A stretch of 64,000 nt of DNA, taken from NCBI GenBank assembly GCA_017303675.1, contig JAFLBX010000001.1, positions 1,809,970 through 1,873,969 on the forward strand, in the 5' to 3' direction. Under the pieces are notes generated by a model, which made no database searches, was not told where the DNA came from, and saw only the letters and a program-made list of their open reading frames with translations. The position numbers were made by a program, and so were the translations under genes. This DNA is from Ignavibacteria bacterium. Its GTDB lineage: Bacteria; Bacteroidota; Ignavibacteria; Tepidaquicellales; OLB5. Below are positions 38,285 through 62,517 of the stretch, piece after piece; positions within the stretch are counted from its first letter, which is position 1, and each line of letters starts with the position of its first letter.

Positions 38285-38314
38285 AAATTTAATATTAATT
38301 AATTGTATTATTAT

Positions 38315-39055: not shown

Positions 39056-39170
39056 TTATCTGTTGGTATTTTTACTTAAGCTATTCGGAAGTGTTCCCTT
39101 ATTAACAAATATTTACAAATTTAGGTTTTATATTTATAAAAAAATATCTAAAAAATTGTGTAAATAATAA

Positions 39171-39213
39171 AAAAGAGCTTATTTCATCATACTAATATAT
39201 TGAAATAAGCTCT
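39171..39213 (-). terminator. Hairpin terminator after paralogue 3
   Basis: AGAGCTTATTTCA pairs with TGAAATAAGCTCT across a 14-base loop; the left A-run gives Ts on the minus strand. Confidence 0.75.
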
Positions 39214-39240
39214 AAAAAACTGAAAATAATTGTAAATTTA

Positions 39241-40017
39241 TTATTTTAAAACCTGCCCGAAGTAAAAGGATAGTCCAGCATAAAATTGAATGTAAACCAA
39301 AGTTTTAGCCCTGTTATTAGAGCTTTCTTCATCATTTATACCAATTTCACGAAGTGAACCTGTACCTGTTTCTTCATCGTCTGTTAATGTATTTGTAGAA
39401 GTAGTTGTAATATCGGTTTTTTTCCCGATCAGATTGGTTAAAGCGTACTTAACGCCGATGACAGCACCGATACTTTTGTTAAGCTTTATATCAACGCCTG
39501 CATTTGCAATTATACCAAAACGGGATTCACTTTTTCTTTGTAAATTATATGTAGTATCACCTGAAGCTTCAATTTTTCCGCTGTAAAAGTTCATAGCAAG
39601 GTCAAGCCCTGCAAAAGGGTTTATTTTTTTCTTTGGAAAAAAGCTGTATTCTGCCCCGAGGGAAATAGTAAATATATTAACTTTATTTTTATAAGTTAAT
39701 GTTGCACCGCTTCGGGGATAATCTTTTGACCCTGAAAACGAATTGTAATTAAAGCCTGCGGTTAATCTGGCTTTACCTAAAGTATCAACAGCATACTTCC
39801 CTATAGCGCCGATATTAAATCCGCTTTTTGTAAGCAGTGTGCTCGACTTATCAAAATTAAGCATTTCAGTACCTAAAGTATCAGGGAAATCACCTTTCAG
39901 ATCTGCAGCAGGCAGAGTGTATCCTCCATACACTGTCAGATTCATTTTAGTTTGAGCGAAATCAGAAACTGTTGAAATTAAAAAGAGGGCTGAGAGAAGT
40001 ATTAATCTGAATATCAT
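39241..40017 (-). CDS. Outer-membrane beta-barrel protein (paralogue 3 of 5)
   Basis: Signal peptide (1-21, ending SDFAQ), then LTVYGGYTLPAADLKGDFPD, the inner block IGAVIGVKYALTNLIGKK and the final strand YIQFYAGLSFYFGQ. The internal YSFFPKKKINPFAGLDL motif recurs in paralogues 4 and 5 (EYSFTPREKTAPFIGLDL and EYSFMPKGKTNPFLGAEF), which shows tandem duplication. It has its own terminator, so it is a separate unit from paralogue 2. The function is unknown. Confidence 0.75.
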   Translation of the reverse strand: MIFRLILLSALFLISTVSDFAQTKMNLTVYGGYTLPAADLKGDFPDTLGTEMLNFDKSSTLLTKSGFNIGAIGKYAVDTLGKARLTAGFNYNSFSGSKDYPRSGATLTYKNKVNIFTISLGAEYSFFPKKKINPFAGLDLAMNFYSGKIEASGDTTYNLQRKSESRFGIIANAGVDIKLNKSIGAVIGVKYALTNLIGKKTDITTTSTNTLTDDEETGTGSLREIGINDEESSNNRAKTLVYIQFYAGLSFYFGQVLK

Positions 40018-40113
40018 AATTAGCTGAAATTAAATTACAAATTTTATTTCTGTAAGTTAAATTTAACAATTTAAAAGCCTTTTTACAATTGTATAATTAC
40101 AAATAATTAATAC

Positions 40114-40140
40114 AAAAAAAGCCGGGGATAGAGCCCGGCT
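40114..40140 (-). terminator. Terminator after paralogue 4
   Basis: AGCCGGG/CCCGGCT hairpin with seven A residues to its left (T-run on the minus strand). Confidence 0.85.
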
Positions 40141-40163
40141 AAAACTGTAAAGCTGTTTTTTAA

Positions 40164-40910
40164 TTATTTGCTTTTTTTCTGCTGGTTAAAATAAAATGTT
40201 ATGCCAAGATATATCTGGAAATACATAATATTTTTTGCTTTGATCGAGCCGTTTTCCTTATCATTCAGGTTATACTCACCTGCAGAAGATGAAGCCAAGT
40301 ATTCTTTGCCTATTAAATTTGCAAAGTGATATTTAGCTCCGAAAACCGCGCCGATGCTTTTATTAAATGCTACATCAACACCTCCGCCAACAGCTAAGCC
40401 AAACCTTGAAGCTGATTTCAGTGTGTAAGATACGGTACCAATATCATTATGATCTGCAGTTGATGCTGCAGTAACGGTTTCTTCGGTTTTGCCGCTGAAG
40501 AAATTTCCTGTTAGGTCTAAACCTATGAAAGGAGCAGTTTTTTCGCGGGGTGTAAATGAATATTCTGCACCCAGATTAGCGGATATAATGCTCATGCTGG
40601 TATGGAAATCAACTGTGTTGGTATGAGAGTAGGTTTCATTTCCAGTGAATTTATTATAGCTGCCGCCAAAAGTTAGTCTTATCTTTCCCTTTTTATCAAC
40701 GGCATATTTACCGGCGAGCCCGAGATTAAAACCGGTTTTTACAAAATATGATTCGCCGGATCCACTGTTAACGGAATCAATAGTGCCTTTGAGCTGCGGA
40801 AGCGGTAGGTTATAGCCTCCGGTTACTGCAATAACAAACCTGGGCTGTGAATACAGACTGCCTGCTATAGTTAATATAAGTACTGCCGTTAATACAAATG
40901 CTTTTTTCAT
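40164..40910 (-). CDS. Outer-membrane beta-barrel protein (paralogue 4 of 5)
   Basis: Signal peptide (1-21, ending SLYSQ), then AVTGGYNLPLPQLKG, inner block IGAVFGAKYHFANLIGKE and last strand YFQIYLGITFYFNQQ. It is closest to paralogue 5 (41343-42059): they share GGYNLPLP.LKG and the GGG/GGGVD(V/F)AFNKSIGAV-type block. The HMA-domain gene lies 63 bases upstream on the same strand and may be co-transcribed. No substrate can be inferred. Confidence 0.77.
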   Translation of the reverse strand: MKKAFVLTAVLILTIAGSLYSQPRFVIAVTGGYNLPLPQLKGTIDSVNSGSGESYFVKTGFNLGLAGKYAVDKKGKIRLTFGGSYNKFTGNETYSHTNTVDFHTSMSIISANLGAEYSFTPREKTAPFIGLDLTGNFFSGKTEETVTAASTADHNDIGTVSYTLKSASRFGLAVGGGVDVAFNKSIGAVFGAKYHFANLIGKEYLASSSAGEYNLNDKENGSIKAKNIMYFQIYLGITFYFNQQKKSK

Positions 40911-40973
40911 TTATTATAATATAAGTTAGAAATACCAGTTTTTTCCTTTGTGATTTTTATAAAATACCGAAAA

Positions 40974-41261
40974 TCAGCTTTCGCTCAGCTTATAGCCTGC
41001 ATTAACTATTGCCAGTTTTACCTGCTCAAGTGTGACTTTTTTATCATCATACTTAACTGTTACTGTTTTGTTAACATGATCAGCTTTTACAGACTTTATA
41101 CCTTCGAGCTTCATTATCTCATTGGTAACTGTTTCTTCGCAGCCTGAGCAGTGCATACCGAAAGTTGGAATTACCTTCGTCCTGATCTTTTCTGCAGCAT
41201 TGTTTCCTGCAAAAGCAGTAATTGATAAAAACAGGGCTAATAAAATTGTTGCTATTTTCAT
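40974..41261 (-). CDS. Exported heavy-metal-associated (HMA) domain protein, copper-chaperone-like
   Basis: After a signal peptide (residues 1-18, ending SITAFAG) comes one HMA domain with the metal-binding FGMHCSGCEE (CxxC) and the usual beta-alpha-beta pattern through VKLAIVNAGYKL. I use the ATG at 41261, ten codons into the longest frame, because it begins the signal peptide (MKIATILLALFLS). A secreted HMA domain is a likely periplasmic copper carrier. The copper ATPase gene lies about 1 kb upstream on the same strand. A terminator separates it from paralogue 5 upstream. Confidence 0.85.
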   Translation of the reverse strand: MKIATILLALFLSITAFAGNNAAEKIRTKVIPTFGMHCSGCEETVTNEIMKLEGIKSVKADHVNKTVTVKYDDKKVTLEQVKLAIVNAGYKLSES

Positions 41262-41293
41262 AGTATTGCAAAAATCATTAAAATTATACAAAT

Positions 41294-41321
41294 AAAAAAG
41301 GGAGTCTGTTTAGACTCCCTT
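41294..41321 (-). terminator. Terminator after paralogue 5
   Basis: AAGGGAGTCT-GTTT-AGACTCCCTT hairpin with a left A-run. Confidence 0.88.
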
Positions 41322-41342
41322 ATAAACAATTTTGTTAATTAC

Positions 41343-42059
41343 TTATTTTTTTCTTGCTTTTGGATGATTAAATGAGAATGTTACACCAGCATAAATCTGT
41401 AAATATGATAGATTTTTTGATTTTGTTACTGATGTTTCTTTATCGATGAGTGTATATTCATTATTTACTGTTGAGGTAACTGAATCTTTACCAATCAGGT
41501 TAGCCATGTTGTATTTTACACCAACAACTGCACCAATGCTTTTGTTGAATGTAAAATCAAGACCGCCGCCAACACCGATACCGAATCTTGAAGCTGATTT
41601 CATTGTTGCTTCAGTTTCTGTTCCGCCAGTAGGCATTGTTTTGTAATTACCACTGAAGAAATTACCTGTAAATTCAGCGCCTAAGAATGGATTGGTTTTG
41701 CCTTTAGGCATAAATGAATATTCAACACCTAAGCCTATAGCAATAATGTTAACTTTTGTAATAAATGAACCGCCAGTTACAGAAATATCACCTGATGAAA
41801 ATGAGTTATATGCACCGCTTAATGTGATACCAACATTTCTTTTTTTACCAAGATAGTATTTTACATCAGCGCCAGCATTAAAACCGCTTTTCTGCAACAT
41901 TGAATTTGTATCTGCCGGATATTCACCTTTTAAATCAGGTAATGGTAAATTATAACCACCGGTTACATGAACTTTTACCTGCGGCTGTGAAAAAGTTGTA
42001 CTGTTATTTAAACTTAAAAAAGCTGCTAAAATTACAAATAATGCAACTAATTTTTTCAA
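41343..42059 (-). CDS. Outer-membrane beta-barrel protein (paralogue 5 of 5)
   Basis: Signal peptide (1-25, ending TTFSQ), then VHVTGGYNLPLPDLKGEY, inner block IGAVVGVKYNMANLIGKD and last strand YLQIYAGVTFSFNHPKARKK. The start is a TTG at 42059 with a strong AAAGGAGA ribosome binding site 9 bases upstream, so this non-ATG start looks real. It is preceded by a leader of about 230 bases that looks structured (see 42115-42215). Confidence 0.78.
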   Translation of the reverse strand: MKKLVALFVILAAFLSLNNSTTFSQPQVKVHVTGGYNLPLPDLKGEYPADTNSMLQKSGFNAGADVKYYLGKKRNVGITLSGAYNSFSSGDISVTGGSFITKVNIIAIGLGVEYSFMPKGKTNPFLGAEFTGNFFSGNYKTMPTGGTETEATMKSASRFGIGVGGGLDFTFNKSIGAVVGVKYNMANLIGKDSVTSTVNNEYTLIDKETSVTKSKNLSYLQIYAGVTFSFNHPKARKK

Positions 42060-46996: not shown

Positions 46997-47812
46997 TTAT
47001 TTTACCAGTATCATTTTTCTTGTTTCGTAATTACCGCCGGCGTTTATTTTCATGAAATAAATTCCGCTGTTTACCTTAGACCCGCTGTTATTTAATGCAT
47101 GCCAGGTAAATTTATGATCTCCGGGTTTGAGTATATTATTGAACATTGAGCAGATCTCAGCGCCGTTTACATCGTAGATCTTTATATCTACATTTGTTTC
47201 TTTGATCAAAGAGATGTTAATGCTGGTAGAAGGATTAAAGGGATTCGGGTAATTTTCACTAATACTGTAATCTGCGGGTGAAATGTTAGGTTCAATTCCA
47301 ACTGTGCTGCGCACAATTATTCTTTTGCTGAGCGCATTATTCCAGGCGTCGCCGCCGGTATTGCTTTGTGAATTGCCTGCTAAACCAACTGCCCATATTG
47401 TATCTGTACCACCGGTGCCCGGAGCAGTATAATTGAATGAAACAGTAACAGAGCCGTTTGTCATTGGTATATTATTATTATGAGTAAGCTCACCATTTGA
47501 AATACGCAAACCTGAAGTTACAACACCTAATGCACCAAGCCTGGTTGCGACATCAAGACCCATACCAGTTTTACCGGCATTGGATATGGTTATACTGTAT
47601 TGCTGGGTTTGTCCTGTGTTTACCGTATCAGGTCCTGTGATAGTTACTGTTACGCCTGTGTTAATTGAACCGTGGCAAGAGCAGCCTGATGTGCTGGTTT
47701 TTAATGTTCTTCCTGTTCTTCCGTCTATATCGCCGTATAATAAAACTGATGATGCAATAAAAATAATAATAAAAGCTGCAAAAAATTTTTTACTTAATAA
47801 AATGCTTTTCAT
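46997..47812 (-). CDS. T9SS-secreted choice-of-anchor V-type protein
   Basis: A signal peptide (1-27) is followed by GRTGRTLKTSTSGCSCHGSINTG and a beta-sandwich segment (VTVTITGPDTVNTGQTQQYSI), the pattern of choice-of-anchor V domains. A type IX sorting domain (NYPNPFNPSTSINISL... IYFMKINAGGN... KKMILVK) ends the protein. The CSCH motif has one residue between the cysteines, so it is not a normal haem c site. It is probably a surface protein. It lies between the kinase gene and the nine-haem cytochrome gene, on the cytochrome's strand. Confidence 0.8.
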   Translation of the reverse strand: MKSILLSKKFFAAFIIIFIASSVLLYGDIDGRTGRTLKTSTSGCSCHGSINTGVTVTITGPDTVNTGQTQQYSITISNAGKTGMGLDVATRLGALGVVTSGLRISNGELTHNNNIPMTNGSVTVSFNYTAPGTGGTDTIWAVGLAGNSQSNTGGDAWNNALSKRIIVRSTVGIEPNISPADYSISENYPNPFNPSTSINISLIKETNVDIKIYDVNGAEICSMFNNILKPGDHKFTWHALNNSGSKVNSGIYFMKINAGGNYETRKMILVK

Positions 47813-48144: not shown

Positions 48145-50250
48145 TTATTTAAGTAATACCATTTTCTTAATTGCAGTATTATTACCTGCAACTATTCTGT
48201 AGAAATATACACCGCTTGCAACTTTTGAGTTCATATCATTTGTTGCATCCCAGTCAACTTCATATGTACCTGCGGTGAATTTATCTTTGGTAACAACTTT
48301 TACAACACGGCCAAGTATATCAAATATAGCAATAGTTACATCTGATTCTTTTGGCAGCGAGAATTTGAACTTTGTTGTGGGGTTAAACGGGTTCGGATAA
48401 TTCTGCGTGAGTTCAAATCTCTGCGGAACTTCATTTGAAAGATTTACTATACCTACTATTGCATTTCTTGATGCAACCAAAGCATCGATACAGTATTTAG
48501 CATTATGCATACCATATTCACTTCCGTCTCTGATAGAGAGGTAATTGAGGTATGCTTTTTTCATATTAAGATGATTTGGATTAAGTGTATCAGCTGCTAT
48601 TAACTGCCATGCTACTGAATCAACACCGTACGGTGGTAATGCCATAGCCAGTTTTGTTAAACTGCCGGCTACTTCACCACGCCATGGCTCTATATTTCCG
48701 TCACCGTCATAATCTGCGTCAGATATAAAGTCATCAAATTTGGTTTTTCCAAAGTGACAGCTCTGGCAGGCTTTCATATGATCATAGTTAGTAGCTTCGT
48801 TATGCAGGAATAATGCATGTCCGCCGACTTTATCTCTGTTAGCTGAAGCTGTATCTGTTGGAGCCATATGGCAGGTAACGCAGGCATTCTGTAAAAATGT
48901 GAAATGCTGAGTTGACCTGTATGGTGCGCCGCCAAATGTAGCTAAGTTCTGTCCTAAGTAGATATCAGCCTGTGAATTATGATGCGGTCCCCAGTTACCG
49001 CTGGTAATTCTAGTGTTAGCATATGTCATTGTATTTCTTCTGGATTTATGGCAATCCATACAAGTTGCGCCGTTTCCAACATTCGTATAATGATAACCGT
49101 TTGCAAGTGTATCACTGCCTGCAGGTCTTGATCTTAAGTATGCATTATTACTGTTACCGTGCGGGTCATGGCAGGTTGCGCATGATACCATTTCATGGCT
49201 TGCAACGGTTTTACCGTTGGTATTTGTTCCGATACCTTTGGTAAAGTTTACATAACCCTGTCCATCATGACATCTGATACAGTTATCGAGATTATTCGTT
49301 CCGTTATTATTCTGGGCGAATGAATTGCTCCATATAACACTTGAGTGTTTTGCATTTTTCCACTGTGTGAATATCGGTGCTTGTGGCGGTGAATCATGGC
49401 ACTGTCCGCAAACACCTGCGTTAACAGACTTCATGATCTTATTTGTATCTCCGCCGCCGAATACGTGTTCACTTCCGGGTCCGTGGCAGCTTTCGCATCC
49501 AACACCTGCAAAAGGCGCGAGAGTGGGGAAGCGGTTTTTAATTGTATCCCAGTTACCGGGTTTTGGAGGAGCATACGATGACCAGTTCCATCCCAGATCA
49601 ACTGCTTTATCATCAAAACCATTGTTGCTTGCAACTATGTTATGATCATAACCCATTGTATGGCATTTGAAGCAGCTTGGACCGAAACCTGAATTCAATG
49701 TTGATATCCCTGTTTTGAATGATGTTGCATGTCCTGTAACTTTCCACCTGTTAAAAATATCAGTGAAAGTAGGCTGGCCGTTATGGCAGCTCATACAGTT
49801 GGGGAATGCAGCGGGAATGTTATCAAATCCGCCGGTACCAACGTAAGTTGCAGCGTATAATGTTACTGTTGTATCTTTTGAACCTGTTGATGTAACAACA
49901 GAAACCTGTACCTGGTATGTACCGGTTAAGTCAGCTTTAAATTTCTGCCAGGTCGGTAAGCCTGTTAATCCTGCAAGTGATGCAGCAGAACCTGATGGTT
50001 TTACCAGCATTGTCCATGTAGCGCTTTGGATAGCAGCAGTATCGCCGAAATTCCATGCTCTTAAATAAACATATGTACCTTTGGCAACAGATCTTAATCC
50101 GCTGGCAACAGTTGAATCTTGAGTGTAAGCAGAATTCGTAGCAAGCATTTGAGGAGTTACATATTCTGTAACTATTTTAACCCTCGGAGCTCCAATTACC
50201 AATCCGGCGCATAGAACCATAAAAAGTAAGAAAGTCCCTGTCCGTTTCAT
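48145..50250 (-). CDS. T9SS-exported nine-haem c-type cytochrome
   Basis: Signal peptide 1-20 (ending LVIGA), a beta-rich segment (about 20-140), then nine CXXCH haem sites (CMSCH, CFKCH, CESCH, CGQCH, CIRCH, CATCH, CMDCH, CVTCH, CQSCH) over about residues 145-500. It ends with a type IX sorting domain (NYPNPFNPTTKFKFSLPK... YFYRIVAGNN... KKMVLLK). This predicts a haem chain delivered to the outer surface. I start at the ATG at 50250, preceded by AGGAGG, not at the upstream 50283. A sigma-54-type promoter lies at 50315-50330. It is probably the outermost part of the electron route encoded to its right. Confidence 0.9.
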   Translation of the reverse strand: MKRTGTFLLFMVLCAGLVIGAPRVKIVTEYVTPQMLATNSAYTQDSTVASGLRSVAKGTYVYLRAWNFGDTAAIQSATWTMLVKPSGSAASLAGLTGLPTWQKFKADLTGTYQVQVSVVTSTGSKDTTVTLYAATYVGTGGFDNIPAAFPNCMSCHNGQPTFTDIFNRWKVTGHATSFKTGISTLNSGFGPSCFKCHTMGYDHNIVASNNGFDDKAVDLGWNWSSYAPPKPGNWDTIKNRFPTLAPFAGVGCESCHGPGSEHVFGGGDTNKIMKSVNAGVCGQCHDSPPQAPIFTQWKNAKHSSVIWSNSFAQNNNGTNNLDNCIRCHDGQGYVNFTKGIGTNTNGKTVASHEMVSCATCHDPHGNSNNAYLRSRPAGSDTLANGYHYTNVGNGATCMDCHKSRRNTMTYANTRITSGNWGPHHNSQADIYLGQNLATFGGAPYRSTQHFTFLQNACVTCHMAPTDTASANRDKVGGHALFLHNEATNYDHMKACQSCHFGKTKFDDFISDADYDGDGNIEPWRGEVAGSLTKLAMALPPYGVDSVAWQLIAADTLNPNHLNMKKAYLNYLSIRDGSEYGMHNAKYCIDALVASRNAIVGIVNLSNEVPQRFELTQNYPNPFNPTTKFKFSLPKESDVTIAIFDILGRVVKVVTKDKFTAGTYEVDWDATNDMNSKVASGVYFYRIVAGNNTAIKKMVLLK

Positions 50251-50314
50251 TATAATTCCTCCTGATTTATTGGTGTTTAACATTTTTGTTTTATATACAG
50301 TTGACTATTATATC

Positions 50315-50330
50315 ATCAAATAGCGTGCCA
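50315..50330 (-). promoter_or_regulatory. Sigma-54-type promoter for the nine-haem cytochrome gene
   Basis: On the minus strand the sequence reads TGGCACG-CTAT-TTGAT, with the -24 GG and -12 G correctly spaced (deviation: A where C is usual after TTG). It lies 65 bases upstream of the start codon and is nearly identical to the element at 53046-53061, including the following ATGATATA. Confidence 0.75.
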
Positions 50331-50521: not shown

Positions 50522-51868
50522 ATGATGAGTAACGAAGATATAAAAATACTGGTAGTAGATGATGAGGTTAATTCCACAATACTTTTAAAAAAAGTACTGG
50601 AAAAAAAAGGGTATGATGCTTTAACCGAAAATGATTCAAAAGCCGCAATGCAGCTGGTGGAAAATGGCGATTTTGATATTATTATATCAGATCTGCAGAT
50701 GCCGGATGTAAGCGGGTTAGACCTGCTGCGCGCTAAAAAAGATGATACCCTGTTCATAATGATCACCGGATTCGGCTCAATTGACTCCGCAGTCGAAGCA
50801 ATGAAGCTTGGAGCGTTTGATTATATCGGCAAGCCGTTTAACCTTGATGAATTTATACTGAAATTCGATAAGGCTGTAGAAAATATCAGGCTTAATTCAC
50901 AGGTTGAAACATTACGCTCTCAGCTGGATGAAAATTCATCATTCAGCAGCATAATCGGCAAAAGCAGAAAGATGCTTCATGTGTTTGATATGATAAAAAA
51001 TGTTGCAAGAACAGATGCCAATGTGCTGATTGAAGGTCAAAGCGGAACAGGTAAGGAGCTTGTTGCCAAAGCAATACATTATAACAGCAGCCGTGCAGCA
51101 GGACCGTTTATAGCAATCAACTGTTCTGCAATTCCGGATAATCTTCTTGAGAGTGAACTTTTCGGTCATACAAAAGGAGCTTATACCGGTGCGGTTGAAG
51201 CTCAAAAAGGCGTTTTTGAGCTTGCTCACGGGGGAACCCTGCTGCTTGATGAAATTGCGGAAATGCCTTTTAACCTGCAGTCAAAACTTCTCAGGGTGAT
51301 TGAAACATGGGAAATTAAACCTCTTGGAAGTGATAAGGTAAAAAAAGTTGATGTAAGGCTCTTAAGCGCTACAAACCGTGTGATCAAAGAAATGATCGAT
51401 GAAAAGAAATTCCGCGAGGATCTGTTTTACAGGATCGCTACAGTATCAATTTCTCTTCCATCATTAAATGAAAGAAAAGATGATATCCCTATTTTAGCAG
51501 ATCATTTTATCAAAAAGATATCAGCTAAAATGAATAAGAATGCCGCTTTAAAAGGCGATGCCATTGAGGTCTTAACAAATCATAACTGGCCGGGAAATGT
51601 AAGGGAGCTTGAAAATGTAATTGAGCGCGCTGTAATTTCCAGTGATACAGATATGCTTGGCAGACATAATTTTAAATTCCTGGTTTCAAACGGTAATGAA
51701 ATCGAAAATATTACTCCCGGGGGAAACCTAGAATTGAAAGACCTGGAAAAAGTTCACATCCGTAAAGTGCTTGAAGAGAACGGCTGGAACAAGCTGCAGG
51801 CAGCAAAGATATTAGGCATAGACCGCAAAACCCTTTACAAGAAGATAAAAGAGTATGAACTGGAGTGA
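50522..51868 (+). CDS. Sigma-54-dependent response regulator (NtrC/AtoC class)
   Basis: Receiver domain (1-120, Asp57 in ISDLQMPD, Lys in YIGKPF), AAA+ domain (about 140-375, Walker A GQSGTGKE at 172-179, GAYTGA loop at 219-224 that contacts sigma-54) and a Fis-type HTH at the C-terminus (LQAAKILGIDRKTLYKKIKEYE). All elements needed for phosphorylation-controlled activation are present. The likely kinase partner is the PAS kinase at 45642. Its position between two sigma-54-type promoters of cytochrome units suggests that it controls them. Confidence 0.95.
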   Translation: MMSNEDIKILVVDDEVNSTILLKKVLEKKGYDALTENDSKAAMQLVENGDFDIIISDLQMPDVSGLDLLRAKKDDTLFIMITGFGSIDSAVEAMKLGAFDYIGKPFNLDEFILKFDKAVENIRLNSQVETLRSQLDENSSFSSIIGKSRKMLHVFDMIKNVARTDANVLIEGQSGTGKELVAKAIHYNSSRAAGPFIAINCSAIPDNLLESELFGHTKGAYTGAVEAQKGVFELAHGGTLLLDEIAEMPFNLQSKLLRVIETWEIKPLGSDKVKKVDVRLLSATNRVIKEMIDEKKFREDLFYRIATVSISLPSLNERKDDIPILADHFIKKISAKMNKNAALKGDAIEVLTNHNWPGNVRELENVIERAVISSDTDMLGRHNFKFLVSNGNEIENITPGGNLELKDLEKVHIRKVLEENGWNKLQAAKILGIDRKTLYKKIKEYELE

Positions 51869-53045: not shown

Positions 53046-53061
53046 TGGCACGTTATTTGTA
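53046..53061 (+). promoter_or_regulatory. Sigma-54-type promoter for the cytochrome operon
   Basis: TGGCACG-TTAT-TTGTA has correct -24/-12 spacing. It is followed by ATGATATA and lies 27 bases before the first ATG of the operon. It matches the element upstream of the nine-haem cytochrome gene. Confidence 0.78.
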
Positions 53062-53448: not shown

Positions 53449-55362
53449 ATGAACAGCTATCTGAAAAATATATTTAAAATTTTCCTGCCAGTTATACTTA
53501 TCAGCGGGTTGTTGATATTTGCGGACAGCTATTCAGGCTTAAAAAAATCCAGTACAGATGTTTGCCTTTCATGCCATGAAGATAAAGAACTAACCATGGA
53601 AAAGAACGGGAAGAAAATATCCCTGTTCGTAAACGGTGAAGGCTATAAAAAATCAGTTCATAACGTTGCAGAATGTGAAGATTGCCATGAGAATTATAAC
53701 CCTGATGAGCTTCCTCATTCAAAAAATCCGGCTGAGGTTAACTGTATCAGCTGCCATAAAGAAGCGAAAAATATTGAAACTAATGTTCACGCCAAAGTTA
53801 AGTGTTATGACTGCCATACAAAACATGATATAAAGCCGGCAAAAGAATTTGCCAATGAACAGACTAAATCATGCTTAAGCTGCCACAAACAGAAGAACAT
53901 ACAGCATTACTCTGAAAGTATTCATGCAAAGAACAATGTAACATGTGAAAGCTGTCACGGCGGAGGACATACTGTTAAGAAAATCGCCAAACATGAAGTT
54001 ACCGCAACATGCGGAAAGTGTCATGGCGACCATGAAAAGAATTTTAAGAACAGCATTCACATGACTGTTTTGAACAAAGGCAACCAGAATGCGCCAACCT
54101 GTACTGACTGCCATGGTTCACATAAGATAATACGCGGCAAAATATCGGTGGAATCACAGGCATGCTTAGAGTGCCATCTTGATGAGAAAAAATTCCCGGG
54201 CGAAGAAAAAGGCTCAGCGAAATTCGTTCAGCATTACAAAACCAGCATTCATGCAGCAGTTGAAAAAGACGGATTGCTTGAAGCTGCCGGTTGTGTTGAC
54301 TGCCACGGAAACCATATGATACAGGAGCCTAATAATCCGAAAGCTTCCACAAACCGGGCTAAGCTGATGGAAACCTGCGGAAAGTGCCACAAAGAAACAG
54401 TTGAGCATTTCAAAAAATCAAAACACGGGCAGGAACTTTTAAAAGGAAGCGATAAAGCCCCCACATGTACTGATTGCCACGGTGAGCATGATATACAGTC
54501 AACACTGCTTTCCAACGATTTTTCGAAGATAAATCTAACAGATAAATGTTTAAGCTGCCATAAGGATGGCAAGATACCGCATAAGAATTATAAAGGCGAA
54601 GAAGAGTTAATAACCGGATACCAGAACAGTATTCATTACCTGGCGTTAAAGGATGGAAATTTTGATGCACCGACCTGTTACCAGTGCCATGGTGCACATG
54701 AAATGGAAAGCGCAAATGATCCCAACAGCAGGATAAGCAAGAAAAATATAGCTAAAACATGCGGTCAGTCTGGATGTCATACAAACCAGCTTGCGGATTT
54801 TAACGGAAGCATTCATGAAATAGGGGTAAGCAAAGATAATAAAGACGCTCCAACCTGTAATAACTGCCATGGAAATCACGGAATTATTACAAAGAATGTT
54901 GATAACAAGCTTCAGAAATCCAGGGATATTATTACGCTCTGTTCAAACTGCCACAGCTCTGTTGAGCTTGTTGAAAGAAATGACCTTCCAACACAGGTAT
55001 CAGAGACATTCAGTGAAAGCTTTCACGGGCTGGCTATCAGGGGCGGAGGTAAGGAAGCTGCGAACTGCGAAAGCTGCCATGGTAATCATAACGTAAGGCC
55101 TTCAACTGATTCTTTATCAACAATTCATAAAAAGTATTTGCCGCAAACTTGTGGTAAATGTCATCCCGGAGCAACCGAGGTATTGTTTAGTAAAAAGATA
55201 CATTTGACAAATCTTGAAGAAGATTCACCTGCTGTGTTCTGGATCACAAGAATTTACATGTTCATGATATTCGGATTGATAGGTTTTATGGTGTTCCATA
55301 ATATTCTTGACTACAGAAGAAAATGGCAGCACAGGAAACAGCACGGGAAAAAGAAAAAATGA
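53449..55362 (+). CDS. Large multihaem c-type cytochrome with 19 candidate haem sites, membrane-tethered
   Basis: A hydrophobic N-terminal segment (about 8-26) serves as signal or anchor, and a C-terminal helix (about 600-622, RIYMFMIFGLIGFMVFHNI) with a basic tail tethers the protein to the inner membrane. Between them are 18 CXXCH motifs plus one CX4CH (CGQSGCH). Many sites have the paired form PTCTDCHG.H, and SIHxxx / SKHGQ-type His positions give distal haem ligands. It is co-transcribed with a b-type cytochrome whose ATG overlaps its stop codon by four bases. I infer a periplasmic haem wire receiving electrons from that membrane partner. Confidence 0.9.
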   Translation: MNSYLKNIFKIFLPVILISGLLIFADSYSGLKKSSTDVCLSCHEDKELTMEKNGKKISLFVNGEGYKKSVHNVAECEDCHENYNPDELPHSKNPAEVNCISCHKEAKNIETNVHAKVKCYDCHTKHDIKPAKEFANEQTKSCLSCHKQKNIQHYSESIHAKNNVTCESCHGGGHTVKKIAKHEVTATCGKCHGDHEKNFKNSIHMTVLNKGNQNAPTCTDCHGSHKIIRGKISVESQACLECHLDEKKFPGEEKGSAKFVQHYKTSIHAAVEKDGLLEAAGCVDCHGNHMIQEPNNPKASTNRAKLMETCGKCHKETVEHFKKSKHGQELLKGSDKAPTCTDCHGEHDIQSTLLSNDFSKINLTDKCLSCHKDGKIPHKNYKGEEELITGYQNSIHYLALKDGNFDAPTCYQCHGAHEMESANDPNSRISKKNIAKTCGQSGCHTNQLADFNGSIHEIGVSKDNKDAPTCNNCHGNHGIITKNVDNKLQKSRDIITLCSNCHSSVELVERNDLPTQVSETFSESFHGLAIRGGGKEAANCESCHGNHNVRPSTDSLSTIHKKYLPQTCGKCHPGATEVLFSKKIHLTNLEEDSPAVFWITRIYMFMIFGLIGFMVFHNILDYRRKWQHRKQHGKKKK

Positions 55363-56201
55363 GCGGGAAAGATAAAATAAAGGTACAGGAAAGTTTTGAA
55401 GATATAAAATATCTCAGAATGAGCTTTAATGAAAGGGTTCAGCATTTCCTTTTATTTACAAGCTTTATTACTCTGATCCTAACCGGTTTCGGACTTAAAT
55501 TTCCTGAAGCCTTCTGGGTAAAATGGATAGTATATATAATTGGCGATAATGCATTTGAAGCAAGGGGAATAGTTCACAGAATAGCATCCCTGGTAATGAT
55601 AGGTGCATCTGTTTATCATTTATACTATATATTATTTGTTCCGCGCGGTAAACAGCTGGTCAGGGACTTTCTGCCATGCAAACAGGACCTTATAGATTTT
55701 AAGGATTCCATGCTTTACCTGATAGGGAGATCTGATGTAAAGCCAAGGCTCGGAAGGTTCAGCTACATAGAAAAAATGGAATACTGGGCTGTAGTGTGGG
55801 GTACTGTGATAATGAGCGCAACGGGTTTTATACTGTGGTTCGAAAATACATTTTTAAAGATAGTAGGCACCGAAGGAATGGAAGTTTCTACTGCTATTCA
55901 TTATTACGAAGCTATACTTGCTTCGCTGGCAATTCTTGTTTGGCATTTTTACTTTATATTTATAAACCCGGATGTTGCACCAATGAATAAAGCCTGGTCA
56001 AAAGGGTATTTAACCCGTGAACAGATGGAGCATGAACATCCTTTAGAGCTTGAAGAGCTTGAAAGAAAAGCTGCTGACGAAAAAGCCGCAGCAGAAGCAG
56101 AAAAAGCTGCAGCGGAAGCTGAAAAAGAAAAAAAAGCAATTAAAGCAAACGAAGAAAAAGAGAACAAAGCGGAAGAAAATAATTCTGATTCAAAAAAATA
56201 A
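55359..56201 (+). CDS. Membrane b-type cytochrome (cytochrome b561/FdnI-like)
   Basis: About four membrane helices carry suitable His ligands: RVQHFLLF, IVHRIASLVMIGASVYHLYYI and AIHYYEAILASLAILVWHFYFIF. The pattern resembles the b subunits of formate dehydrogenase and related quinone-linked complexes. A long Ala/Glu/Lys coiled-coil tail (from about residue 230) is unusual. I prefer the ATG at 55359 (ATGA overlap with the previous stop) over 55323. Together with the upstream 19-site cytochrome it is probably a quinol oxidase/reductase module at the inner membrane. Confidence 0.85.
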   Translation: MSGKDKIKVQESFEDIKYLRMSFNERVQHFLLFTSFITLILTGFGLKFPEAFWVKWIVYIIGDNAFEARGIVHRIASLVMIGASVYHLYYILFVPRGKQLVRDFLPCKQDLIDFKDSMLYLIGRSDVKPRLGRFSYIEKMEYWAVVWGTVIMSATGFILWFENTFLKIVGTEGMEVSTAIHYYEAILASLAILVWHFYFIFINPDVAPMNKAWSKGYLTREQMEHEHPLELEELERKAADEKAAAEAEKAAAEAEKEKKAIKANEEKENKAEENNSDSKK

Positions 56202-56230: not shown

Positions 56231-58291
56231 ATGAGTGAAGAAACTAAAGCAGAAACACCATCAGAAAAGCCGAAAGAGCTAAAGCAAGTCAGGTTCTTTA
56301 AAAAGGTGAGAGGATTAAAAAGATTTTTCCTGTTTACCGGTATTTACCTCGGATTATTCCTGATACTTTTGGCAGGTTCTGCTGAATATACTTCCCGGCC
56401 GGCTTTTTGCCCGACCTGTCATTACATGGAGTCATTCTATCAAAGCTGGCGAACCTCAGCTCATAACAAAGTAGATTGCGTAGAATGTCATTTTGAACCG
56501 GGAATTTCAGGAACTGTTCGCGGTAAGCTGAACGGATTAGTGCAGATAGTGAGCTATGTATCACAATCATACAAAAAGCGCAAACCATGGGCAGAAATTC
56601 CGGATAACACATGCGCGCGTTCCGGCTGCCATGAAATGCAGAATATAAAAGATTCAACTTACAATTTTAAGGGTGTTCAGTTCAGCCATAAGAATCACCT
56701 GCAGGAACAGCGCAGGGGCAAAACACTTAAATGTACAAGCTGTCACTCACAGGTTGTGCAGGGTTCTCACATTGAAGTTACTGAAGCAACCTGTTTTACC
56801 TGTCACTTCAAGAAATCAGATGATCCGGAGCATAAATATGATAAGCTTGCTGACTGCAATACATGCCACAGCTGGGAAAATAAATCAAAAGAAGAAATGG
56901 CAAGCTTCAGGTATGACCATACATCAGTCCGGGATAACAAGTTTGCATGTTTGGATTGCCATTCAAACACAGTTTCAGGCAAAGGTGATGTTGGCAAGGA
57001 AAGGTGCTTCCAGTGTCATTTTGAAACCGAACGGCTTGAAAAGATGACAGATATTAAGCTGATGCATGAAACACACATCAAAAAGCACAGCATGAAATGT
57101 TTTACATGTCATAACCAGATAGACCATAAAGTTCAGAAGATGGATCCGACTGCACCGCCGGACTGCCAGAGCTGCCACACCAATGCTCACACACAAATGG
57201 TGAGTTTATACACAGGTGAGAACGGATTTAATGTGGAAAAATCACCCAGCGCAATGTTCATGAACGGTATCAACTGCCGCGGCTGTCATGTATTCCATGA
57301 AATGGACAGGATGGATATAAACACATCCAAATCAGGAGGTAAAGCCTGTGAAAAATGCCACGGCAAAGGTTATGATAAGCTTATAGAACAATGGAAAGCC
57401 GGAACAGTAAAAAGAGTGGCATCAATTAATTCGATCTATAAAAATGTGATGCCGATAATTTCAAAAAGCACAAGCGATAAAAAGCCGCAGGCTGAAGAAA
57501 TGATGAGACAGGCTGAACATAATATTAAGATAGTAGAAATAGGAAAAAGCGTTCATAATATCCAGTTTGCTGATAAGCTGTTGATAGGCGCTTATGGTTT
57601 GATGAAAAATGCTCTTTCAACAATAGGGGCAGCAAATTCATTGCCGGTATTTACATCAGCTTCAGAATTTATACCGAATGAATGCTACAGCTGCCACTCA
57701 GGAATACAGGAAATAAATGTGAAGAAGTTCGATATGAATTTTTCACATAACAAGCATATAATAGATAATAAAATATCATGTAATAAGTGTCACTCAAATG
57801 AACAGAAGCACGGGACTACTATTATCACCGAACAGGGCTGTAATAACTGTCATCACTCAGCCAGCAAAACCAATGAAAGCTGTGTAAAATGTCATAAATT
57901 CCAGGAACAGGTATATAACGGAAATGTATTCGGAAAGAACCAGCCTGATTTTATGAAAACTGCGGGTGCAGGCTGCGGTGACTGTCACTTAAATGCTGAT
58001 AAAGTTGTAAAACCCGATAAAATGATATGCTTAAAATGCCACGAAGCCGGTTATGACGACCAAATGGGAGAGTGGAAAGCGGATGTTAAGAAAATTTCTG
58101 CTGAGCTTGGAGAGCTAATTCAGAAAGCAAAAACTATGGAGCTGGGCAATGAAGAAAAAGCTGAAGTCGAAGATGCTAAAAAGATCCTGAACCAGATAAC
58201 ATCACATCCGAGCATTTACGTGCATAATTATGACCTGATAACCACAGTACTTAATGAAAAGAAAAAGAAGCTTAAGAACTTCGTTAAATAA
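56231..58291 (+). CDS. NapC/NirT-like membrane-anchored cytochrome with 18 candidate haem sites
   Basis: One N-terminal helix (about 36-56) is followed by the NapC/NrfH-type start (RPAFCPTCHYMESFYQSWRTSAHNKVDCVECHFEPG), then a long haem array: 17 CXXCH and one CX4CH (CARSGCH) in total. Parts of the array resemble cytochrome c7/c3-type triplets separated by non-haem helical segments near residues 390-480 and 615-680. NapC proteins take electrons from menaquinol; here the quinol-linked head continues into an extended wire, which is an unusual fusion. It follows the b-type cytochrome by 29 bases and is part of the same operon. Confidence 0.88.
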   Translation: MSEETKAETPSEKPKELKQVRFFKKVRGLKRFFLFTGIYLGLFLILLAGSAEYTSRPAFCPTCHYMESFYQSWRTSAHNKVDCVECHFEPGISGTVRGKLNGLVQIVSYVSQSYKKRKPWAEIPDNTCARSGCHEMQNIKDSTYNFKGVQFSHKNHLQEQRRGKTLKCTSCHSQVVQGSHIEVTEATCFTCHFKKSDDPEHKYDKLADCNTCHSWENKSKEEMASFRYDHTSVRDNKFACLDCHSNTVSGKGDVGKERCFQCHFETERLEKMTDIKLMHETHIKKHSMKCFTCHNQIDHKVQKMDPTAPPDCQSCHTNAHTQMVSLYTGENGFNVEKSPSAMFMNGINCRGCHVFHEMDRMDINTSKSGGKACEKCHGKGYDKLIEQWKAGTVKRVASINSIYKNVMPIISKSTSDKKPQAEEMMRQAEHNIKIVEIGKSVHNIQFADKLLIGAYGLMKNALSTIGAANSLPVFTSASEFIPNECYSCHSGIQEINVKKFDMNFSHNKHIIDNKISCNKCHSNEQKHGTTIITEQGCNNCHHSASKTNESCVKCHKFQEQVYNGNVFGKNQPDFMKTAGAGCGDCHLNADKVVKPDKMICLKCHEAGYDDQMGEWKADVKKISAELGELIQKAKTMELGNEEKAEVEDAKKILNQITSHPSIYVHNYDLITTVLNEKKKKLKNFVK

Positions 58292-58365: not shown

Positions 58366-58926
58366 ATGAGAACAAAAATTTCAATAGCGGTATTGGCAGT
58401 TATTGTATTTGCTGCATACAGCTTTACATTTTTTGAGTATGCGCATAAAGCAGCAGCCGGAAAATATGTAGGCGTACAGACCTGTGTTGGCGCATGCCAT
58501 AAAACAGATGCCCAGGGAAAACAGCTTGATATCTGGCAGAACAGCAAACACTCTAATGCTTTTAAAGTGCTGCAGACCCCTGAAGCTGACAAAATTGCAA
58601 AAGATAAAGGATTCACAACACCGGCAGCAGAAACCCCGGCTTGCTTAAAGTGCCATGTATTGGGCAAAGATATTGATCCAACAGAGCTTGAATCAACATT
58701 CAGCAAAGAAGACGGCGTTCAGTGTGAAACATGCCACGGTGCAGGTTCAGAATATAAAAAGCTTTCTATAATGAAAGATAAGGAAAAATCAAAAGAGAAC
58801 GGTTTGATAGTTCACGATGATAAAGCAGCATTCTGCACAGGCTGTCATAATTCAGAAAGCCCGACATTCAAGAGCTTTAATTATGATGAAATGTGGCCGA
58901 AAATTCAGCACAGCAAACCTCAGTAA
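58366..58926 (+). CDS. Cytochrome c554-like tetrahaem protein
   Basis: After a signal/anchor helix (about 5-22), the segment KYVGVQTCVGACHKTDAQGKQ, then WQNSKHSNAFKVLQTPEA, matches cytochrome c554-type proteins. Three CXXCH sites (CLKCH, CETCH, CTGCH) follow a first site with three residues between the cysteines (CVGACH), a variant of the family's usual CXXCH there. At 186 residues it has a plausible length for a small periplasmic shuttle. Upstream spacing is 74 bases, with a GAGG near the ATG. It probably shuttles electrons between the inner-membrane and outer-membrane cytochromes of the operon. Confidence 0.85.
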   Translation: MRTKISIAVLAVIVFAAYSFTFFEYAHKAAAGKYVGVQTCVGACHKTDAQGKQLDIWQNSKHSNAFKVLQTPEADKIAKDKGFTTPAAETPACLKCHVLGKDIDPTELESTFSKEDGVQCETCHGAGSEYKKLSIMKDKEKSKENGLIVHDDKAAFCTGCHNSESPTFKSFNYDEMWPKIQHSKPQ

Positions 58927-58998: not shown

Positions 58999-60330
58999 AT
59001 GAAACCTAAACTATTGCCGCTGATAGTCATTTTGATACTTGGAGGCAGTATCTATGCGCAATCAGTAAATTTCAGGTTCAATAATTATTTTTATGCATGG
59101 CAAAGGATAGACAGCCTTTCCAATGAGTCAAGCGCAAAAACAACCCACTTTCGCGGTTACCAGAATTATCTTCTGGAAGTAAAGGGCACGCAGTGGAGCT
59201 TTAACACTTTAGCCCAGACCGAAGAGGATATAATTGCCAAATCAGGAAGAGGATTTGCATACAGGTTTTATAACGCGTATGTAAAAGGATCGAACCTTTT
59301 TGGCGTGCTTGATGTAAAGCTTGGAAGGCAAAGCATCTTTGCCGGCACAGGCCGGGGAACACTTGACGGATTAAACCTGAAAGTTAAAGCCGGAAAGTTC
59401 AAAGAGTACCAGTTCACATTGTATGGAGGCGCCCTCGCTCCGTACACTTATGAATTCAATAATTACCCCGAGATAAAGAATAATTACCATTTCGGGGGAA
59501 TGTTCAGCTATTACGGTGTTAAAGACCTGATGGCTTCAGTAAGCTATTCGCACAAAAAACGCACTCCTGAATCTTACACAACTTTCAGGGCTGACAGCGT
59601 TTACAATCTTGTAGAAAGGACCATTACATTTGAAGGTCCCGCCGAACAGCTAATTGGCCTAGATCTTAATTACACATACCTGGCTAAGCATAACTTCTTT
59701 GCAAAAGCTTATTTTGATCTGACCCAGAAAAAGCTTTACCGGGCAGAAGCTAATGTAAGGATACAGATAAACAATGAGCTTAGAGGCTTTATAGAATATA
59801 TGTACAGGGAACCGCACTATAATTATAACAGTATTTTCTGGGTATTTAACTATAACCAGAACCAGGAAATAGCAGGCGGACTTGATTATACTTTAAAGAA
59901 CGGGATAAACATTTACGGAAGAGCCGGTGTGGTATTATATAAAAAGAGTGAAATTAACCAAAGCAGTCCCGGTGAAACCAAGAATAATTCAATTAAAATT
60001 CAGGCAGGTTTCTCGCATCCGAACTACGGATTGAATTTTACAAGGTATATGGGTTATTCGGGTGAATCAGACGGAGTCTCTGCATATATCCAGAAAGATA
60101 TATATAAAGATAAAGTATCCGGTTCAGCATCGGTTAATTATTCAAATTATAAGCTGGGTGACTACGAAGTGGATAAAGTAAACGCTTTCAGCGGTCAGCT
60201 TGGTATTACATACAGACCCATGCCGCAATTTTCTGTGGATGTGCAGGGGCAGTTCTTAATTAACAGGATCTATAAATCTGACGCAAGATGCCTGGTAGGT
60301 TTCAGCTACTGGCTGTTTAAGAAATTATAA
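58999..60330 (+). CDS. Predicted outer-membrane beta-barrel protein in the cytochrome operon
   Basis: A signal peptide (1-20, ending SIYAQ) is followed by about 420 residues of alternating aromatic/polar strands (for example FRGYQNYLLEVKGTQWSF, RYMGYSGESDGVSAYIQKDIY). The end, CLVGFSYWLFKKL, suits barrel insertion. No haem motif is present. It sits between cytochrome genes, the place held by MtrB/PioB-like porins in porin-cytochrome conduits. I do not recognise it as MtrB itself and treat a conduit-porin role as inference from context. Confidence 0.7.
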   Translation: MKPKLLPLIVILILGGSIYAQSVNFRFNNYFYAWQRIDSLSNESSAKTTHFRGYQNYLLEVKGTQWSFNTLAQTEEDIIAKSGRGFAYRFYNAYVKGSNLFGVLDVKLGRQSIFAGTGRGTLDGLNLKVKAGKFKEYQFTLYGGALAPYTYEFNNYPEIKNNYHFGGMFSYYGVKDLMASVSYSHKKRTPESYTTFRADSVYNLVERTITFEGPAEQLIGLDLNYTYLAKHNFFAKAYFDLTQKKLYRAEANVRIQINNELRGFIEYMYREPHYNYNSIFWVFNYNQNQEIAGGLDYTLKNGINIYGRAGVVLYKKSEINQSSPGETKNNSIKIQAGFSHPNYGLNFTRYMGYSGESDGVSAYIQKDIYKDKVSGSASVNYSNYKLGDYEVDKVNAFSGQLGITYRPMPQFSVDVQGQFLINRIYKSDARCLVGFSYWLFKKL

Positions 60331-60342
60331 GGAAAAAGTGAA

Positions 60343-61638
60343 ATGAAAATAACTAAACTATATATATTTCTTATTGCAGGGCTTTTAATATTTTTAAGCT
60401 CAACAGCATATCTTGTTAAAGATTCCAAAAGCCTGAATAAGAATTCAGTATCAAAAGTATTTGCAGATTCAAAAAACGAAGCTGTAAGATATGATAACAG
60501 CAAAATCATCAAGTTCGATCATAAGCTGCATGTAAAAGATGCAGGCGTAAAATGTGAAGATTGCCATGCAGGCGCAGTTAACAGTATTTCTTCCAAAGAT
60601 AACCTGAACCCGAAGAAAGAAAACTGCTCAGGCTGCCACGATGTGAAAGATGAGAAGACATGTAACCTCTGTCATTACGAGGGAGTTTACAAAAAGCTTA
60701 AAACAAATAAAACCGAGCTGATTTTTTCTCATAAGCAGCATATAGATACAGAAAAGAAACAGTGTATTGATTGCCACCAGGGACTTGATAACGTAAAATA
60801 TTCAAAAGAAGTCACAGCTTCGGGAATGCCTTCAATGGAAAGCTGCTACAGCTGCCACAATACTCAAAAGGCTTCAAATAATTGTGAAAGCTGCCACAGC
60901 AATCTGACAAACTTAACGCCGGCAAATCACCGCAGTCCTAATTTTTTGAATGAACATAAGCTCAGCGATATTTCCAGCGGAAAGAACAACTGTATGATGT
61001 GCCACAGCGATAATCTTTGCCAGGCTTGTCATTCACCGGTTGGTTTCAATGGAAATAATACCAAACAGGGATTCTATGCGCCGTATTATACAAAAGAAAC
61101 CGGTGTAAGAACTGACAGAACAGCGCTGCAAAAGCTTACAACAGCTCACTCATTGAATTATAAATTCATGCACGGACTTGACGCCAACCAGAAAAGCTTT
61201 GAATGCAAAACATGCCATGAACAAAGTACATTCTGTGCTGAGTGTCACCAGAACGGCGGGGAGCTGGTATCCGGTTTTGCACCCACATCGCACCAGGTTG
61301 CAGGATTTACCACATTCGGCGTAAATACCGGAGGCGGGCTGCATTCAGACCTGGCTAAAAAAGATATCGAGTCATGCGCATCATGCCATGATGTAGAAGG
61401 CAGAGACCCGGTATGCGTTAAATGCCATTTTGATAATGATGGTGTGAAGGGTACAAATCCGAAAACACATGAATCAGGATTTATGAGAGATGAAAAGGGC
61501 ATTTGGCACGATACTGAAGGGGCTAACTGCTACAGCTGTCATACAGATGCGAATGCAAAACCTAACGGTATTGCAGGCAGGGGATTCTGCGGCTACTGTC
61601 ATGAAAGCACGGGTTCTGATAAGTTCAAGTTAAGATAA
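60343..61638 (+). CDS. Multihaem c-type cytochrome with 14 CXXCH sites
   Basis: An N-terminal signal or anchor (residues about 5-26, rich in hydrophobic residues) precedes 14 CXXCH motifs (from CEDCH near residue 65 to CGYCH near 420). Many have SHKQHI- or DHKLHV-type histidines upstream, as in cytochrome c7/c3-like proteins. A long haem-free stretch near residues 230-290 separates two arrays. It is 12 bases from the barrel gene, the tightest spacing in the operon, so it may be the cytochrome that partners with the barrel. Confidence 0.9.
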   Translation: MKITKLYIFLIAGLLIFLSSTAYLVKDSKSLNKNSVSKVFADSKNEAVRYDNSKIIKFDHKLHVKDAGVKCEDCHAGAVNSISSKDNLNPKKENCSGCHDVKDEKTCNLCHYEGVYKKLKTNKTELIFSHKQHIDTEKKQCIDCHQGLDNVKYSKEVTASGMPSMESCYSCHNTQKASNNCESCHSNLTNLTPANHRSPNFLNEHKLSDISSGKNNCMMCHSDNLCQACHSPVGFNGNNTKQGFYAPYYTKETGVRTDRTALQKLTTAHSLNYKFMHGLDANQKSFECKTCHEQSTFCAECHQNGGELVSGFAPTSHQVAGFTTFGVNTGGGLHSDLAKKDIESCASCHDVEGRDPVCVKCHFDNDGVKGTNPKTHESGFMRDEKGIWHDTEGANCYSCHTDANAKPNGIAGRGFCGYCHESTGSDKFKLR

Positions 61639-61668: not shown

Positions 61669-62517
61669 ATGAAAAAGATAATATTGTTTTACGGATTATT
61701 CATTACTTTTCTTGCATCCGTATTATTATACCAGGGATGCAGTGAGCTTGATAATAGCGTAACACTTGCCCCGGAAATAAGAACGCACGGGGAAGGATGG
61801 AGTAATCCGGGTTCCGGTAATTTTCACGGAAGCTATATAGCTTCCACTAAATGGAACCTTGGGCAATGCAAAACCTGCCATGGGGGCGACTATTCCGGCG
61901 GAACTTCAGGCTCTACCTGTTTAGGCTGCCATACAGGCAGCGGCGGACCTGAAAACTGCAGGCTATGCCATGGCAACAGCGATCATGCAAATCCGCCCAG
62001 CGCGCTTAACGGTGATACTTCTGTGAGCTCTATTGGTGTAGGTGTTCATATGAGCCACAGGTATTCTGTTTACGGCGCTGCACTAAGCTGTGAAGACTGC
62101 CACAGGGATATTAACGGTTTTGATGACCCGAATCATATCGGACCGGATGCAGATGGTATTGCTGAAATAGTATTTGGCACAAGGGCCTACGATACTTTAG
62201 GCGGACCGATCAGACCGGACCCGACATGGAACAGAAGCACTGCAACATGTTCCAATGTTTACTGCCACGGTACATTTAAAGAAGGCAATGTAAATGCAGT
62301 TGGTGTGTGGACAAATCCGGGAAGTGTTGTATGCGGAACTTGTCACGGGGATCCTAACACAGGGAATCCGACGCCGCAGGTAAACGGTGTAATTACACCG
62401 CCGCACTATTCATTTATGAATAGTACAACCTGTTATATTTGTCATAGTTCCGTGATGAATCCTTCGGGACAGATAATTGATAAGGAACTTCATATTAACG
62501 GAGAAGTAAATTATTAA
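61669..62517 (+). CDS. Outer-membrane-type multihaem lipoprotein (CxxxxCH/CXXCH), seven candidate sites
   Basis: The signal ends YQGC (Cys24), a relaxed lipobox. Six CXXCH sites and one CX4CH (CSNVYCH) follow. The GGDYSGGTSGSTCLGCH and CxxxxCH/CXXCH layout is like that of Geobacter-type outer-membrane cytochromes. It is the last gene of the operon and is followed by a terminator. I infer surface or periplasm-facing attachment to the outer membrane, as the outer part of the conduit. Confidence 0.87.
   Translation: MKKIILFYGLFITFLASVLLYQGCSELDNSVTLAPEIRTHGEGWSNPGSGNFHGSYIASTKWNLGQCKTCHGGDYSGGTSGSTCLGCHTGSGGPENCRLCHGNSDHANPPSALNGDTSVSSIGVGVHMSHRYSVYGAALSCEDCHRDINGFDDPNHIGPDADGIAEIVFGTRAYDTLGGPIRPDPTWNRSTATCSNVYCHGTFKEGNVNAVGVWTNPGSVVCGTCHGDPNTGNPTPQVNGVITPPHYSFMNSTTCYICHSSVMNPSGQIIDKELHINGEVNY

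Follow-up and report, generated by a model that had tools for sequence, protein, structure and literature searches.

The window analysed here (the whole 64,000-nucleotide stretch) carries a nonahaem cytochrome gene, tagged for the type IX secretion system (T9SS), on its minus strand at 48145..50250 (701 amino acids, ATG at 50250). The frame is open to 50283, and the longer open reading frame (48145-50283, minus strand; 712 residues) extends to an upstream ATG; since an AGGAGG ribosome site precedes the ATG at 50250, we placed the start there, which agrees with the coordinates 48145-50250 given in an earlier reading made from the letters alone (hereafter the sequence-only reading). Four regions were distinguished on the minus strand. 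A Sec/SPI-type signal peptide (50191..50250; MKRTGTFLLFMVLCAGLVIG, followed by APRVK) was recognised by eye, with clear n, h and c regions and no lipobox. It is followed by an N-terminal PKD-like beta-sandwich (49843..50190), the first 115 residues of the AlphaFold2 (AF2) model aligning to PKD domains of the PDB at Z about 9. The OcwA/NrfA-superfamily haem module with its C-terminal helix bundle (48454..49848) was delimited by profile searches against the PDB and by VIA-align, and the T9SS type A C-terminal sorting domain (CTD; 48157..48399) by TIGR04183, PF18962 and the fold of solved CTDs. Nine CXXCH sites and a full sorting domain thus do occur in one chain, as had been claimed: the frame is single and uninterrupted, and the sorting domain scores above the curated cut-offs. 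A frameshift or an assembly chimera was rejected, because the frame is unbroken and the same architecture is found in 62 distinct loci (61 besides this one).

All nine haem sites are in-frame CXXCH motifs on the minus strand: CMSCH (haem 1, 49783..49797), CFKCH (haem 2, 49660..49674; missing from several relatives), CESCH (haem 3, 49483..49497), CGQCH (haem 4, 49396..49410), CIRCH (haem 5, 49267..49281), CATCH (haem 6, 49168..49182), CMDCH (haem 7, 49048..49062), CVTCH (haem 8, 48868..48882) and CQSCH (haem 9, 48754..48768). The corresponding DNA pattern is expected by chance about 4 times per whole 64 kb, against 9 seen within about 1.05 kb and in one frame, and a chance origin of the cluster was rejected on this comparison. 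The CXXCK motif of an NrfA-type catalytic haem is absent from all nine sites.

Eight distal histidines (185, 273, 313, 375, 434, 460, 489 and 593, in the 712-residue numbering) are kept in 32 of 32 homologs, or in 31 of 32 for one of them; with eight conserved ligands for nine haems, one haem has no such histidine. In the alignment, L032, L034 and L073 have lost the haem-2 motif but kept all eight distal histidines; read most simply, haem 2 would be the haem with the open site, as it is in OcwA, and the other haems could pass electrons without it. Four other relatives (L029, L031, L033 and L037) have 8 CXXCH each, L032, L034 and L073 lacking specifically the haem-2 CXXCH in the alignment; such 8-haem variants probably arose more than once through loss of haem 2. 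A His434-His435 pair is present in the window protein, His435 not being conserved among homologs.

We compared the haem module with solved structures by profile and by model. A profile built from 32 homologs (A1) and searched against the PDB matched OcwA (6i5b) with an E-value of 1.5e-28 and the undecahaem cytochrome 6qvm, which we take to be OmhA of Carboxydothermus ferrireducens, with an E-value of 3.7e-21; NrfA and octahaem nitrite reductases gave weaker matches. Similarly, the AF2 model of the window protein (22 sequences, pLDDT 82) gave, in VIA-align, Z 14.7 for OcwA (6i5b; 336 residues aligned) and Z 14.4 for the S-layer cytochrome of Carboxydothermus (6qvm), followed by NrfA and octahaem nitrite reductase at Z about 13. 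OcwA was not among the top 50 Foldseek hits, and was recovered by VIA-align as a second comparison. These matches place the haem module in the OcwA/NrfA superfamily, with OcwA and 6qvm as its closest solved structures. Both are placed at the cell surface, OcwA as a cell-surface cytochrome (PMC6703420) and the S-layer undecahaem cytochrome of C. ferrireducens by its reported location (PMC7829351).

The sorting domain occupies residues 629-709 of the 712-residue open reading frame, that is, the extreme C-terminus, with 45.5 bits for TIGR04183 (cut-off 23) and 38 bits for PF18962 (cut-off 27). The last 90 residues of the AF2 model aligned to the CTD of PorU (6za2) with Z 9.9, and the fold also matched the CTDs of mirolase (8qb1, Z 8.5) and of a NucA substrate (8glk, Z 8.3). 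Of the window's six multihaem proteins, the nonahaem cytochrome alone bears the tag. A PF18962 search of this genome gave at least 150 matches; among its 30 best-scoring CTD loci, no CXXCH was seen in the part of the frame that was read.

The genome was searched for both secretion routes. Of the T9SS core genes, whose absence the sequence-only reading had named as grounds for abandoning its proposal, SprA (910 bits), PorU (917 bits) and PorV (310 bits, plus PorV paralogs) are encoded. In another PorU-like frame (1627 aa; G000:C2:1059615-1064390) the peptidase-like match and the C-terminal match are separated by a gap, and one PorV-like paralog match (G000:C2:1265497-1266459) crosses an internal TAG stop. 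No type II secretin (PF00263) was matched in this genome, while six control genomes were positive, which makes type II export unlikely. With the tag intact, SprA, PorU and PorV encoded and no secretin found, the proposed departure from the type II secretion of known metal reducers is supported. The textbook T9SS has a GldL/GldM motor. Neither GldL nor GldM (PorL/PorM) was recognised in this genome, where a divergent motor could be missed, and across the phylum 28 of 118 genomes had GldM above the cut-off, with this class giving no match; the secretion machine, as distinct from its cargo, thus differs from the standard T9SS.

The sequence-only reading had also suggested looking for the same fusion in other Ignavibacteria, and it proved to be class-wide. 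Of 294 genomes of the class, 183 gave a match to the cytochrome part, among them almost every member of the genus that was sampled. A CTD profile trained solely on non-haem cargo of this genome found a C-terminal CTD in 62 of 62 distinct loci, whose identity ranges from 89% to about 30%. With the cytochrome part this widespread and the tag kept to such low identity, the cytochrome-CTD fusion is ancient.

The haem module is also found in phyla without T9SS. In a cross-phylum comparison limited to rows of at least about 300 bits, the tag was present in 9 of the 10 rows with SprA in the genome (the window, Ignavibacteria, other Bacteroidota, KSB1 and Latescibacterota) and in none of the 16 without it (Verrucomicrobiota, Acidobacteriota, Chloroflexota, Sumerlaeota, Myxococcota, Nitrospirota and others); TIGR04183 agreed with the tag calls (9/22 members of the set A2). 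The Fisher p of 3e-6 is a raw value that takes no account of kinship, and just 2-4 pairs are independent, too few for a formal test of the link between tag and SprA. In the pairings tried, the tag moved with SprA or did not differ, and never went the opposite way. On the tree, about four tag changes are needed and at least two are forced by well-supported branches, so the tag was gained or lost more than once. One SprA-positive relative (L116) is without the tag, as are several shorter relatives.

Other tails and arrangements were also seen. Verrucomicrobial-type relatives (L097, L098, L099, L102, L107 and L143) carry, in place of the CTD, another conserved tail, IYTAAEVAF...TYQ(I/L)Q...FFRV, perhaps a different export or anchoring domain. 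Multihaem proteins of other subfamilies, with 7-8 CXXCH, also end in a T9SS CTD (L064:5215-6795, L066:10169-13087 and L103:12078-13658), and a Sumerlaeota protein of 1333 aa with 16 CXXCH (L104:9749-13750) looks like a doubled module of the nonahaem family.

The cytochrome gene is accompanied by regulatory elements and a multihaem operon. A sigma-54-type -24/-12 promoter of the TGGCAC-N5-TTG form precedes the cytochrome gene (50316..50330, minus strand; TGGCACGCTATTTGA), and another site of this form precedes the operon (53046..53060, plus strand; TGGCACGTTATTTGT). Matches at 9 or more of 10 bases were found for 23 of 63 homologs vs 5 of 516 control ORFs, 2 of those 5 being 13-haem genes, and the operon motif also stands before the operon in L077, L078 and L091. 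Since the sites precede both, the nonahaem gene and the operon likely form a shared regulon. Divergent from the cytochrome gene lies a sigma-54-dependent response regulator (50522..51868, plus strand; PF00158, PF00072), which adjoins it also in L077, L078, L079, L083 and L091.

The operon, on the plus strand, encodes an 18-haem cytochrome with a C-terminal membrane anchor (53449..55362), a cytochrome b561/formate-dehydrogenase-gamma-like membrane protein (55323..56201; PF01292, TIGR01583 below cut-off) that would likely oxidise quinol, a 17-haem cytochrome with a NapC/NirT N-terminus (56231..58291; PF03264, 17 CXXCH), a c554-like 3-haem cytochrome (58366..58926; PF13435), a putative outer-membrane beta-barrel or 'porin' of 443 aa (P0002, 58999..60330), a 14-haem cytochrome (60343..61638) and a 6-haem cytochrome (61669..62517). 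The 58999..60330 product is probably an outer-membrane barrel, judging from its signal peptide, 17% aromatic residues and barrel-like C-terminus; it gave no family or structure match, its single-sequence AF2 model having a pLDDT of 31.6, and it is conserved between cytochrome genes in L079, L080 and L083. In some only of the neighbourhoods read, namely L077, L078, L079, L080, L083 and L091, parts of this gene arrangement recur; in L079 the nonahaem gene comes immediately before the barrel gene and two multihaem genes, all on one strand.

Elsewhere in the window, a run of five consecutive outer-membrane beta-barrel-like proteins of 238-297 aa is encoded at 37391-42059 (minus strand). A T9SS-tagged 'choice-of-anchor V' protein of 271 aa adjoins the cytochrome gene (46997-47812, minus strand) and carries GCSCHG (CXCH) near its N-terminus; its gene adjoins the cytochrome gene in L077, L078 and L091 too, and it is a possible one-haem or metal partner. 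A CcmF-type cytochrome c maturation gene lies just past the window end.

We consider it likely that the window protein is an OcwA-family nonahaem cytochrome that travels as T9SS cargo and serves as the surface terminal oxidoreductase of an extracellular electron-transfer chain. Sec export followed by periplasmic haem attachment and folding is general for c-type cytochromes. The nonahaem cytochrome would be carried into the periplasm by Sec and would acquire its haems and fold there before export; its CTD would then be recognised by the PorV/SprA translocon and the protein passed across the outer membrane. Outside the cell, it would form the outer end of an electron conduit and work as a terminal oxidoreductase in the manner of OcwA, with electrons supplied by the sigma-54-controlled neighbours: the cytochrome b, the 17- and 18-haem cytochromes, the small multihaem proteins and the probable barrel. 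We infer T9SS passage from the tag, the machinery and the phylogenetic pattern, while the surface location and haem loading before export are predicted; the weakest links of the scheme, also inferred, are that the protein touches the barrel and that electrons flow outwards, to extracellular acceptors reduced in respiration. At the level of prediction, the interpretation of the sequence-only reading, a multihaem cytochrome exported by T9SS, is supported. It had spoken of a haem-loaded 'wire'; by homology and fold, an OcwA-like terminal oxidoreductase describes the protein better than that label.

T9SS type A cargo can be released or anchored, and the cytochrome might accordingly leave the cell altogether, as a soluble cytochrome or electron shuttle in the medium, and not stay anchored beside a conduit. 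The protein has no anchor besides the CTD, and the related OmhA is bound weakly and sheared off easily (PMC7829351); however, the genome encodes the PorU sortase, and the gene has the putative barrel and multihaem genes for neighbours, which it immediately precedes in L079. We regard release as rather unlikely. It is less probable still that the T9SS-exported protein is mainly a surface enzyme of the NrfA/octahaem family, reducing nitrite, hydroxylamine or a sulfur compound in place of a solid acceptor. NrfA and octahaem nitrite reductase are its next structural relatives, haem 2, apparently without a distal histidine, would fit an open catalytic site, and OcwA itself reduces nitrite slowly (PMC6703420), but all nine sites are CXXCH with no CXXCK, several relatives have lost the haem-2 motif and kept the remainder, and the genes linked to this one are multihaem electron-transfer genes. 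That the C-terminal domain is simply Ig-like and the protein a periplasmic electron carrier, as its matches to FlgD_ig and other Ig-like folds, the untagged relatives and the unrecognised GldL and GldM could suggest, is the most doubtful alternative, given a tag that matches curated T9SS models, forms the very end of the protein in each of the 62 loci, is found in none of the 16 rows from SprA-less genomes and has at least 150 PF18962 counterparts in this genome.

Ignavibacteria are repeatedly met on anodes and in iron-reducing conditions. Porin-cytochrome clusters have been reported in the class (PMC4245776, PMC7399161), and a paper that reports secreted multihaem proteins in Bacteroidota, and also discusses Ignavibacteria, makes no mention of T9SS in its text (PMC11495043). 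In the open-access literature, the scope of our search (subscription papers and preprints lying outside it), we found no description of T9SS export of multihaem cytochromes and no account of how the outermost Ignavibacteria cytochrome reaches the surface. The window protein joins two known kinds, OcwA-type cytochromes and T9SS cargo, and it is their union that may be new. An OcwA homolog that bears a T9SS tag throughout the class offers a specific, testable answer for surface delivery in Ignavibacteria, and the conservation of the tag suggests a route for placing 'wired' proteins on the cell surface. It would imply that a large, cofactor-loaded electron-transfer protein can pass folded through SprA. 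The comparison also shows that a single haem module bears different C-terminal tails across lineages. Whether T9SS is a general route of the FCB group for haem-loaded OcwA-like oxidoreductases, with an Ignavibacteria translocon that works without a recognised GldL/GldM motor, we judge to be evenly balanced.

Compared with known systems, the nearest is OcwA of Thermincola potens (6i5b), the outer cell wall terminal reductase, which shares nine haems, the NrfA-type helix bundle and a homologous haem module. OcwA, however, is a monoderm protein with no T9SS tag, whereas the window protein adds the PKD-like N-domain and the CTD; furthermore, OcwA has His-His motifs at its penta-coordinate haems 2 and 5, and the window protein and its homologs do not keep these as such. 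The C. ferrireducens cytochrome (6qvm) likewise has a homologous C-terminal haem module and a surface location, but differs in its eleven haems, S-layer attachment and monoderm host without T9SS. NrfA and the octahaem nitrite reductases share the fold superfamily and the C-terminal helices; NrfA has a CXXCK catalytic haem, whereas the window protein has none, and has nine haems and an export tag. MtrC/OmcA and the Geobacter outer-surface cytochromes with their porin-cytochrome complexes do the kind of job that is proposed here, that of the last cytochrome outside a trans-outer-membrane conduit. MtrC and OmcA are lipoproteins exported by type II secretion, whereas the window genome has no secretin match, and the OmcA/MtrC decahaem family model (TIGR03507) scores 22 bits on the window protein against a cut-off of 209. 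With T9SS type A cargo (hydrolases, adhesins and peptidases), finally, the window protein shares the same CTD and the same translocon genes, the cargo here being a multihaem cytochrome.
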